From Arcobacter defluvii (GTDB lineage Bacteria > Campylobacterota > Campylobacteria > Campylobacterales > Arcobacteraceae), in contig NZ_CP053835.1 of NCBI RefSeq assembly GCF_013201725.1, positions 620,001 through 684,000 on the forward strand: a DNA stretch of 64,000 nucleotides, read 5' to 3'. The notes beneath the pieces were generated by a model that saw nothing but the letters and a program-made list of their open reading frames with translations, was not told where the DNA came from and searched no databases. A program made the position numbers and the translations under genes. This document shows positions 1,309 through 64,000 of the stretch, in pieces (within the stretch, counting starts at the first letter, position 1; the number at the start of each line of letters is the position of its first letter).

Positions 1309-2421
1309 ATGAAAAACCTTTTTAGAGGTCAAACAATAAGTTTAGTTACATGCGGATTAATTTTAAGTTCTACTATGTCATTTGGTGCAGATTCAATTGA
1401 TGCAGCTTTTAAAGAAGGTAAAGCTTCAGGAAGTTTAGCATTATATGGTGAAAAGTATGACAATAAAGGTGGAGATAAAGATACTGGATTTGGAAATGGA
1501 AATGCAACTGTTGCTTTTGAAACAGGTTCTTTTTATGGTTTATCTGCAAAAGCTGAATTTAAAGGAAATTTAAAACTTGGTGAAGTTGAGCATAACGATC
1601 ATGATAATGAATATCTTAATAATTCTTTAATGACAGAAGCTTATATAAAATATGCTACAGAAGGATTCTCTTTAACTGCTGGTAGACAAGCTATTGATCT
1701 TGAATGGTTAGGTGATTATAATGAGGCTGTTGTTGCTGCAATTACTGCTATTCCAGATACTACAATTGTTCTTGGGTTTGCAAATAGACAAGCTGAGTCA
1801 GGTATTGATTTAAGTGAAGATTTTGAAGATATCAATGACAATAAAGGAGCATATGTTCTTGATGTTAAATATGCAGGTTTTGATGGTGTAGAATTAAATC
1901 CTTATTTTTATACAGCTCCAGATGCACTTGATTGGTATGGGTTAAAAGCAACATTTACTACTGATTATTTTGGTGCAATTGCTCATTATGCTGCAAGTAG
2001 TGTAGATAATTCTGTTGGTGTAGAAGATGGTTCAATTGGGCATGTTGAATTAAATACTGAAGTTGCAGGACTTTCAGCTGGTGTTGGTTATATTAAAACT
2101 GATAAAGATGGTGGCGTTGAATTAATGGGTGTTGCAGGTGATAACATAAATCCATTTGATGATGGTAACTATGTATATGTAGCTGATGCAAGAACTGTAT
2201 ATGGTTTTTTAGGATATACAATTGCTGATGTTGAATTAGGTGCATTATATGGACAAACTACTTATGGTTCAAATGATGATAAAGAAAGTGAATTAAATTT
2301 AACAGCTGCATATCCAATTACTGAAACATTAACAGCATCAATTTTATATGGTGATGTAAATGCTGAAGTATCAGGAAATGATTATAACAAAGTATTAGCA
2401 AGCGTAGAATATACATTCTAA
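1309..2421 (+). CDS. outer-membrane porin (Opr/MOMP-like, Campylobacterota type)
   Basis: Predicted 370-residue beta-barrel porin for passive entry of small solutes. I use the ATG at 1309, which has AAGGA 7 bp upstream and begins a clear signal peptide (MKNLFRGQ, a hydrophobic core, then MSFGADS). The upstream in-frame TTG at 1261 would bury that signal. The mature part is glycine- and aromatic-rich with alternating strands, including TAGRQAIDLEWLGDY, a feature I associate with the OprD/MOMP-like porins of this phylum. It ends in a terminal phenylalanine (VEYTF), the usual BamA recognition signature. A strong terminator follows, so the gene is monocistronic. The Fur-like site upstream suggests iron-responsive expression. 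Substrate is unknown. Confidence 0.8.
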   Translation: MKNLFRGQTISLVTCGLILSSTMSFGADSIDAAFKEGKASGSLALYGEKYDNKGGDKDTGFGNGNATVAFETGSFYGLSAKAEFKGNLKLGEVEHNDHDNEYLNNSLMTEAYIKYATEGFSLTAGRQAIDLEWLGDYNEAVVAAITAIPDTTIVLGFANRQAESGIDLSEDFEDINDNKGAYVLDVKYAGFDGVELNPYFYTAPDALDWYGLKATFTTDYFGAIAHYAASSVDNSVGVEDGSIGHVELNTEVAGLSAGVGYIKTDKDGGVELMGVAGDNINPFDDGNYVYVADARTVYGFLGYTIADVELGALYGQTTYGSNDDKESELNLTAAYPITETLTASILYGDVNAEVSGNDYNKVLASVEYTF

Positions 2422-62140: not shown

Positions 62141-62691
62141 TGGTACGATTTTTTATATATTTATTAAGTTTAGCTCCTCTTATTTATTTAAATATTAGGT
62201 TATTTATATTTGATAATGTAAATGACCCAATAAAATATATCTATACAATAACAGGTGCAACTGCAACAGTAATACTATTTTTTACAATATCTATTTCACT
62301 AATAAAAGAGAAAATAAATTTAATAAAATATAGAAAAGAAGTAGGACTTTTAGGATTTTTTTATGCTTTATTACATCTTCTGAACTTTGTAGTTTTAGAT
62401 GCTTCTTTTGATTTAGATTTTATTTTTAAAGAGATTTTAGAAAAACCATTTATTTATTTAGGAATGATTGCTTTTTTTATAGTTTTATTTATGGCAATTA
62501 CTTCAACAAAACAACTTTTTAGAAAATATAATAAATATCATAAATTTATATATTTAGCTTTGATTTTAATAACAATTCACTGGATTATGGCTCAAAAATC
62601 AATAAATATTTCTCAATATGTATATATAGTAATTATTCTTTTGATAGGTTTTAGTAAATTGTTTCAGCAGTTAATTAAGAATCTAAAATAG
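62140..62691 (+). CDS. msrQ: MsrQ, haem b membrane subunit of methionine sulfoxide reductase
   Basis: 183 residues with five to six transmembrane helices. It passes electrons from the quinone pool to MsrP. Candidate haem-ligand His residues are in FYALLHLLNFV, YNKYHKFIYLALI and ILITIHWIMAQK. Slightly shorter than the roughly 200-residue E. coli protein. Starts in the TAATG overlap with msrP. A weak inverted repeat (GTTAAC near GTTAA) follows its stop. Confidence 0.93.
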   Translation: MVRFFIYLLSLAPLIYLNIRLFIFDNVNDPIKYIYTITGATATVILFFTISISLIKEKINLIKYRKEVGLLGFFYALLHLLNFVVLDASFDLDFIFKEILEKPFIYLGMIAFFIVLFMAITSTKQLFRKYNKYHKFIYLALILITIHWIMAQKSINISQYVYIVIILLIGFSKLFQQLIKNLK

Positions 62692-62744
62692 GGAAGTTAA
62701 CTCTTCGTTAATTTTCGATTAGATTTTAGTTAATTATGAACTAT

Positions 62745-62750
62745 TATAAT
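62745..62750 (+). promoter_or_regulatory. -10 element of candidate small RNA
   Basis: TATAAT in ACTATTATAATTTC, 54 bp after the msrQ stop. Transcription would start near 62757 and run into three hairpins. Confidence 0.5.
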
Positions 62751-62756
62751 TTCTCT

Positions 62757-62879
62757 ATAGATAAGTTGACGCAGCGACTTATTTATATGAGTATTTTTTA
62801 AGATAAGATTTCTTAAATAGATAATTTTTTATGTTTCCTTGTGTAAAGAAGGATGTCTCCCCTGGGCATCCTTTTTTTA
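62757..62879 (+). ncRNA. candidate small RNA with C-rich terminator loop
   Basis: About 120 nt between msrQ and the helicase gene with no convincing open frame. Hairpin 1: ATAAGTTG with CGACTTAT around ACGCAG (62761-62782, one G-U). Hairpin 2: TTTAAGA with TCTTAAA around a 7-base loop (about 62797-62817). Hairpin 3: AAGGATG with CATCCTT, stem extendable by G-U and C-G pairs, loop containing CTCCCC, then eight T. The last is an unambiguous intrinsic terminator 158 bp after the msrQ stop. No known RNA family is recognised. Size and C-rich loop resemble regulatory RNAs that target G-rich ribosome sites, such as RepG of Helicobacter. Confidence 0.55.
62849..62879 (+). terminator. strong intrinsic terminator of the candidate small RNA
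   Basis: AAGGATG (62849-62855) with CATCCTT (62867-62873), followed by T-run to 62878. The loop TCTCCCCTGGG is unusually C/G-rich for this genome. Confidence 0.88.
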
Positions 62880-62956: not shown

Positions 62957-64000
62957 ATGCCTTTATCAAATCTAAATCAAGAACAACTAGAAGCGGCAAC
63001 TTGTCCTTATGGTTTTAATCTAATTATTGCAAGTGCTGGGACAGGAAAAACTTCTACTATAGTTGGGAGAATTGCAAATTTAATAAACAATGGTGTTAAA
63101 CCAAATCAAATATTACTTTTAACTTTTACAAATAAAGCAGCAGCTGAAATGGTAGCAAGGGTTGCTAAATTTTTTGGAAAAGATATCGCAAAACAAATAA
63201 TGGCAGGAACTTTTCACTCTGTTTCTTATAAACTTTTAAAAGAACTAAATGTAAATATTACTTTAAAACAGCCAAATGAATTAAAAACTTTATTTAAATC
63301 TATTTATGAAAAAAGAGTTTTTATGGAAAGAAATGATGAAGCAAATCCATATGATGGTGGATATTTGTATGATATGTACTCTTTATATCTAAATTCAAAT
63401 GATGGTGAAGATTTTGCTTCATGGATAAAATCAAAAAATGCTAGTCATGAAATTTATACTTTAATTTATGAAGATGTAGTTGCTGAATTTCATGAATTGA
63501 AAACAAAATATGGTTATGCAAATTTTGATGATTTACTAACACTTATGCTTGAAACTTTAAAAGAAAAAGAGTTTGATTTTAAAGAGATTTTAGTAGACGA
63601 GTATCAAGATACAAATCCACTTCAAGGAAGATTACTTGATGGATTTAGACCAAAATCACTATTTTGTGTAGGTGATTATGATCAAAGTATTTATGCTTTT
63701 AATGGTTCTGATATTGGAATTATTTCAACTTTTGCAAAAAGATATGAAAATGCAAAAGTATTTACTCTTAGAAAAAATTATCGTTCAACAAAACCAATCT
63801 TAGATTTAGCAACAAAAGTTATTGAATTTAATGAAAGGGTTTATGAAAAAAAACTTGAAGTTGTAAGAACTCAAGAAGAACATAAACCAAAACTATTAGC
63901 TTTTAATGAGCTTTTCTCTCAATATGAATATATCTCACAATTGATTTCAAAAAGTGAAACTCCACATAATGAAATTGCAATAATATATAGAAATAATTCA
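62957..64000 (+). CDS. UvrD/Rep-family ATP-dependent DNA helicase, N-terminal part
   Basis: 348 codons are present and the frame is open at the window end. The protein starts MPLSNLNQEQLEAATCPYG. Superfamily 1A motifs: Walker A IIASAGTGKTSTIVGR (about residue 26-34), motif Ia LLLTFTNKAAAEMVAR, motif Ib AGTFHSVSYKLL, motif II LVDEYQDTNPLQ, motif III VGDYDQSIYAFNGSD and motif IV NYRSTKPILD. It unwinds DNA 3' to 5' in repair or replication restart. No strong Shine-Dalgarno before the ATG. Rep, UvrD and PcrA cannot be told apart without the C-terminus. Confidence 0.93.
   Translation, partial: MPLSNLNQEQLEAATCPYGFNLIIASAGTGKTSTIVGRIANLINNGVKPNQILLLTFTNKAAAEMVARVAKFFGKDIAKQIMAGTFHSVSYKLLKELNVNITLKQPNELKTLFKSIYEKRVFMERNDEANPYDGGYLYDMYSLYLNSNDGEDFASWIKSKNASHEIYTLIYEDVVAEFHELKTKYGYANFDDLLTLMLETLKEKEFDFKEILVDEYQDTNPLQGRLLDGFRPKSLFCVGDYDQSIYAFNGSDIGIISTFAKRYENAKVFTLRKNYRSTKPILDLATKVIEFNERVYEKKLEVVRTQEEHKPKLLAFNELFSQYEYISQLISKSETPHNEIAIIYRNNS

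Follow-up and report, generated by a model that had tools for sequence, protein, structure and literature searches.

The window analysed here, a stretch of 64,000 nucleotides from the genome of Arcobacter defluvii, contains an intergenic region between msrQ and a gene for a UvrD/PcrA-type helicase. An earlier note on this DNA had proposed that a small RNA is encoded there. The question is whether the region holds a gene in its own right and, if so, how this gene would be controlled and on what its RNA would act. The candidate is called sRNA1, and its features are collected in Table 1.

Table 1. Features of the sRNA1 locus, one candidate target in the window and the sister RNA
Feature	Position	Strand	Basis or remark
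Operator, four 11-bp direct repeats GTTAACTCTTC GTTAATTTTCG ATTAGATTTTA GTTAATTATGA	62696..62739	+	putative OmpR/PhoB-type response-regulator site
-10 element TATAAT	62745..62750	+	read from the sequence; conserved in homologues
sRNA1, predicted transcript of ~122 nt	62757..62878	+	fold and conservation; putative start, from the -10 element
5' hairpin (UAUAGAUAAGUUGACGCAGCGACUUAUUUAUA)	62756..62787	+	MFE structure in nearly all homologues
Second hairpin, core UUAAGAU..AUUUCUUAA	62792..62823	+	predicted fold
Unpaired invariant linker UUUUUUAUGUUUCCUUGUGU	62825..62844	+	99.3% conservation; mostly unpaired in predicted folds
Intrinsic terminator, loop CCCCU, T tract	62845..62878	+	fold and stem covariation
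Outer-membrane porin-like protein, weak candidate target	1309..2418	+	predicted pairing of its ribosome site ACAAGGAAAAAAT with the linker
sRNA2	G000:C1:1987182-1987290 (L069:3183-3291)		conserved; shares the operator; followed by a HAD-type hydrolase gene

The predicted transcript and its neighbours

The stop codon of msrQ ends at 62691, and the helicase gene starts with an ATG at 62957. Of the distances given earlier, the 78 bp from 62879 to this ATG stood; the terminator stem begins ~154 bp past the msrQ stop (158 bp in the earlier note). The predicted folding energy of 62745-62879 was -36.7 kcal/mol, compared with -20.6 +/- 3.25 kcal/mol for dinucleotide shuffles (z -4.95; 0 of 200 shuffles were as good). 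All three hairpins described in the earlier note were present in this fold, with the terminator ending at 62878. The TATAAT was also in its place, and the terminator loop indeed reads CTCCCC. The sRNA1 terminator was missing from the output of a simple terminator scan; its fold and stem covariation are nonetheless clear. The Rfam covariance-model search gave no match for sRNA1 (best E 0.56, below gathering), in agreement with the earlier statement that no RNA family was recognised.

As read from the sequence, sRNA1 is a free-standing gene for a putative small regulatory RNA of Arcobacter-type bacteria, with its own predicted promoter and terminator, which supports the separate transcript claimed before. 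The sequence itself shows the gene and its persistence among relatives, the stem of the terminator, a linker that does not vary and an operator common to three loci.

The same region might not act in trans at all, but serve the helicase gene as leader or attenuator or form the 3' end of the msrPQ mRNA. msrQ and the operator are not separated by a terminator, and the helicase gene follows 78 bp downstream. However, the gene upstream of sRNA1 varies from species to species while promoter and RNA remain together, which makes it an independent gene, and the downstream neighbour is an SDR gene in some species. Moreover, sRNA1 appears to have a regulated promoter of its own, and a second conserved -10-like element, TATGATACTATT, precedes the helicase gene. 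A role as leader or mRNA end is very unlikely.

Conservation of the linker, the hairpins and the terminator loop

The earlier note had named a lack of conservation in close relatives as a refutation. This refutation failed: when 60 relatives were searched at the DNA level, sRNA1 was recovered from 28 of 30 congeners and from two further genera of the family. One of the two congeners with no match is represented by a 54% complete genome; in the other, the operator half alone was aligned. Across the 30 aligned homologues (own genome, 27 congeners and two other genera), the stretch TTTTATGTTTCCTTGT was invariant. The identity to the window sequence was 99.3% in the linker, compared with 82% in the 5' hairpin, 71% in the second hairpin and 64% in the terminator. 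As the hairpins are at 64–82% and the terminator loop is variable, the linker is the part selected for its sequence. The linker UUUUAUGUUUCCUUGUGU was unpaired in most homologue folds and partly paired in silico in some.

The first covariance model (R1) comprised the 5' hairpin only, with the other hairpins blurred in the sequence alignment, and was still usable for searching. In a covariance-model search across 249 genomes of the order, sRNA1 matches were confined to Arcobacteraceae. Exact matches to the extended linker in GTDB contigs (a collection of 85,000 species) led to the same group: all 12 were in Arcobacteraceae or in an unclassified Campylobacterales MAG, which carries the whole sRNA1 element. 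Named carriers include Aliarcobacter vitoriensis, Arcobacter cryaerophilus, Arcobacter caeni and Malaciobacter halophilus. In one Malaciobacter-type genus, sRNA1 is duplicated in tandem, and either copy has a four-repeat promoter to itself (L082, L083, L084, L085, L086 and L098).

The covariation check in Arcobacteraceae proposed earlier was borne out by the terminator stem. Its sequence varies freely while pairing is kept: 100% of the cells were paired, and five of nine pairs had two-sided compensatory changes (CCCC-loop clade). The covariation score was 0.51 compared with 0.20 for shuffled alignments, and 0 of 500 shuffles were as high. The 5' hairpin was predicted in almost all homologues; in the butzleri/cryaerophilus and Malaciobacter-type clades, it is rebuilt from different sequence. 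Within one clade, the 5' hairpin had no two-sided changes, only one-sided changes of the G-U type.

The earlier note had likened sRNA1 to RepG of Helicobacter pylori, in which case the C-rich terminator loop would be a seed for G-tracts or GGGGAG ribosome sites. The loop is there in the A. defluvii genome, and the motif GCUUCCCCUAGGC is invariant within the loop-bearing clade. But a CCCC loop is present in only 18 of the 30 homologues, and its conservation is far below that of the near-invariant linker. In the other 12, which include whole subclades, AAAA, GAUUUUU or other sequences stand instead (in one more, CCCC is confined to the stem). The discoverers of RepG looked for homologues in Arcobacter and found none (PMC8295292). 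The likeness is that of a Campylobacterota sRNA with a C/U-rich terminator loop; the differences are the variable loop, the locus, a putative response-regulator operator as promoter and the confinement of RepG to Helicobacter (PMC8295292). A RepG-like action is decidedly unlikely, and the loop as seed was ruled out as the main mechanism since it is not conserved. Lineages with the loop may still use it as an accessory site.

The invariance of AUG UUU CCU UGU within the linker could also point to a short-peptide mRNA read from the AUG at 62831. This AUG has no preceding ribosome site, however, and beyond M-F-P-C the frame is not maintained: it diverges or ends, at codon 5 in L015 and at codon 6 in L023, L026 and the Malaciobacter-type copies. 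Judged by these alignments, the linker AUG is not a conserved reading frame, and a peptide is hardly conceivable.

The repeat promoter, the htrA operon and a sister RNA

The strongest functional clue, absent from the earlier note, is the operator of 11-bp direct repeats that precedes the -10 element. The promoter consists of four 11-bp repeats, 5 bp and TATAAT. It has no -35 hexamer, and repeats 3 and 4 occupy its place. Direct repeats of 11 bp over the -35 region are the usual form of an OmpR/PhoB-type activator site. The -10 element reads TATAAT, TAAAAT, TAGAAT or TATACT in the homologues, and the register between repeats and -10 was kept in 21 of 23–24 distinct four-repeat promoters. The butzleri/cryaerophilus clade has only the two proximal repeats at this locus. 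At five loci of one clade (L016, L017, L021, L023 and L026), a conserved ATGGAAA-type stretch stands in place of the distal repeats; it is possibly the site of another regulator.

A search with the operator pattern gave few matches, mostly before recurring genes, and the reversed-pattern control was near zero. The geometry of four 11-bp repeats, 5 bp and a -10 element was found before sRNA1 (four-repeat clade), before a second RNA, sRNA2, and before an operon of htrA, response regulator and histidine kinase; in the last case, it was present in all 25 genomes examined. From the repeats and the register common with this operon, we infer that the sRNA1 promoter carries an OmpR/PhoB-type regulator site. 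TTAAC-type 11-bp repeats before a -10 element were also seen at L034 and L054 (ResB/CcsB-type), L036 (SecG), L037 (RND membrane-fusion protein) and L066 (TonB receptor). These genes are possible further regulon members.

The protease of the operon is of the DegP/HtrA type, and its response regulator combines receiver and winged-helix output domains (Response_reg and Trans_reg_C). The kinase matched the NCBIfam model ArsS_fam_HK with 409.8 bits (cut-off 250). In another family (G040), a similar operator precedes an LTXXQ/CpxP-like protein, an assignment that is a weak Pfam match below the cut-off, followed by a response regulator with 53% identity. Autoregulation of the operon is the simplest reading of its operator, of the G040 counterpart and of CprRS, which adjoins htrA in Campylobacter jejuni. 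If the operon is autoregulated, the same regulator would control sRNA1 too. Hence, the htrA-linked two-component system is the likely regulator of sRNA1, with regulator and operator matched by association. Against this stands the presence of other regulators of the OmpR type in a genome of 3 Mb. CprRS of C. jejuni has been described as controlling envelope properties (PMC9449129). The common features are htrA followed by an OmpR-type response regulator and a kinase, and an envelope-related regulon; in contrast, the operator and the sRNA were found in this analysis solely in Arcobacteraceae. No sRNA was found reported for the CprRS regulon of C. jejuni in a partial literature search.

The operator-pattern match at G000:C1:1987122 leads to sRNA2. 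Its layout resembles that of sRNA1, with 5' hairpin(s), a linker UUUACUCCUCCUAAUAUA (UUUCUCCUCCUA in most) and a terminator. The z-score of the fold was -3.31, and the Rfam search of sRNA2 gave no match. sRNA2 is present in 23 congeners and, together with the operator, in one other genus; the operator precedes it at 25 loci. Its linker (CUCCUCC) is a perfect anti-Shine-Dalgarno sequence.

Both RNAs bear on a reading in which sRNA1 titrates a protein or binds the polymerase, with the linker as a protein site and not a seed. The near-absolute conservation of a U-rich single-stranded stretch, the twin of the same layout and the reported absence of Hfq in C. jejuni (PMC3847290) would fit. However, the linker of the twin differs, so that a protein site common to both RNAs is improbable. 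The Rfam search gave no match to 6S or CsrB-like families, and the exposed loops of sRNA1 have no GGA. Overall, protein binding is an unlikely function of the linker.

The proposed action of sRNA1 and its candidate targets

The main reading, to which we give a probability of roughly 0.7, is that sRNA1 is a base-pairing RNA, activated through the repeats by a response regulator, whose linker blocks AAGGA-type ribosome sites of mRNAs for exported and outer-membrane proteins. An OmpR/PhoB-family regulator, most likely that of the CprRS/ArsRS-like htrA operon, would bind the four repeats, which stand in for the -35 box. Bound there, it would activate rather than repress transcription of sRNA1. It would also activate htrA, its own operon and sRNA2, as an envelope-stress response. 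The expressed RNA would be bounded by the 5' hairpin and the intrinsic terminator and would expose the linker. This would pair with AAGGA-type sites, preferentially those of exported or outer-membrane protein mRNAs, block the Shine-Dalgarno sequences and thus repress translation of the targets. More tentatively, with chances a little below even, one envelope-stress regulator would use two sister sRNAs with different anti-Shine-Dalgarno linkers (UUUCCUUGUGU and CUCCUCC), sRNA1 being in tandem in one genus, to shut ribosome sites of two classes, in bacteria for which a lack of Hfq is reported.

The linker is the probable seed by its complementarity to ACACAAGGAAACAU and AAGGA-type ribosome sites. 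The target background was a 1.2 Mb sample of the genome with 1140 distinct leaders. In a subset of the leaders, the mean duplex energy was -8.9 kcal/mol for the sRNA1 linker and -7.8 +/- 0.36 kcal/mol for shuffled linkers, a difference expected from its anti-Shine-Dalgarno character. Among the best 30 duplexes, 9 belonged to proteins with a predicted signal peptide, and among the best 60, 15 did (15% expected); the signal-peptide rule and the gene starts were both home-made. This was equalled by 1 of 130 full linker shuffles and by 10–11 of 130 when the anti-Shine-Dalgarno core TTTCCTT was kept, so part of the enrichment is Shine-Dalgarno usage only. Exported proteins are weakly enriched among the predicted targets, and envelope mRNAs are plausible targets.

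Within the window, the porin-like protein is a suggestive candidate. The ribosome site before its ATG formed a predicted duplex of -16.1 kcal/mol with the linker. CAAGGA was present in 11 of 20 leaders of porin orthologues, which are not independent, compared with 7% of AAGGA-type sites in the genome sample. The porin-like protein had no Pfam match, and genus-wide, CACAAGGAAA..ATG sites showed no excess over the control. A tpx-like thiol peroxidase was rejected as a target: its leader has a perfect 11-nt match, ACACAAGGAAA, in eight genomes, but the match runs into the end of the gene before it, and few congeners have the peroxidase gene, so that nothing can be concluded from its conservation.

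OmrA/OmrB and MicF are OmpR-controlled enterobacterial sRNAs, and those of the CpxQ/RybB type are envelope-stress sRNAs. sRNA1 would share with them an envelope-sensing regulator, tandem or twin copies, a conserved seed and likely outer-membrane mRNA targets. In contrast, no sequence relation was found, the putative seed is not at the 5' end but in the linker that precedes the terminator, and the likely regulator is CprR/ArsR-like, in a phylum reported to be without Hfq, at least in C. jejuni. The 'cuckoo' sRNAs of alphaproteobacteria carry the anti-Shine-Dalgarno sequence CCUCCUCCC. Likewise, CUCCUCC of sRNA2 and UUUCCUU of sRNA1, both exposed, mimic the 16S anti-Shine-Dalgarno sequence; the likeness is one of motif, and the layout differs, with a single exposed linker rather than loops.

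Stav et al. 2019 (PMC6429828) screened 38 intergenic regions of a related genome, that of Arcobacter sp. L, and some of the novel genus-restricted motifs in the article itself are unnamed. In this article and a partial literature search, no paper describing sRNA1 or sRNA2 was found; sRNA1 is apparently a real, conserved and undescribed sRNA. Little is known about sRNAs of Arcobacteraceae and about regulons of the CprRS/ArsRS type in Campylobacterota. The locus gives a testable circuit of operator, regulator, two sRNAs and candidate envelope targets. The circuit is conserved over a genus with food-borne species and would be a case of sRNA control where Hfq is thought to be missing.

Two leaders were considered as sRNA2 targets and rejected. 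The leader of ccoN (cbb3 oxidase) contains TAGGAGGAGATTGATG, two blocks complementary to sRNA2, in 17 genomes of the genus (L314 on the minus strand; L218, L232, L234, L236, L237 and L244). The two-block match reached -25.9 kcal/mol; the upstream block may be a promoter -10 element. The AGGAG site in the leader of the MOMP gene pairs with sRNA2, but any such site would. In part of the genus, MOMP leaders (L245, L249, L250, L255 and L256) have a conserved G+C-rich element, GATGAGTTCGCGCGCTCCGGTAGACTG, which looks like a structured leader.
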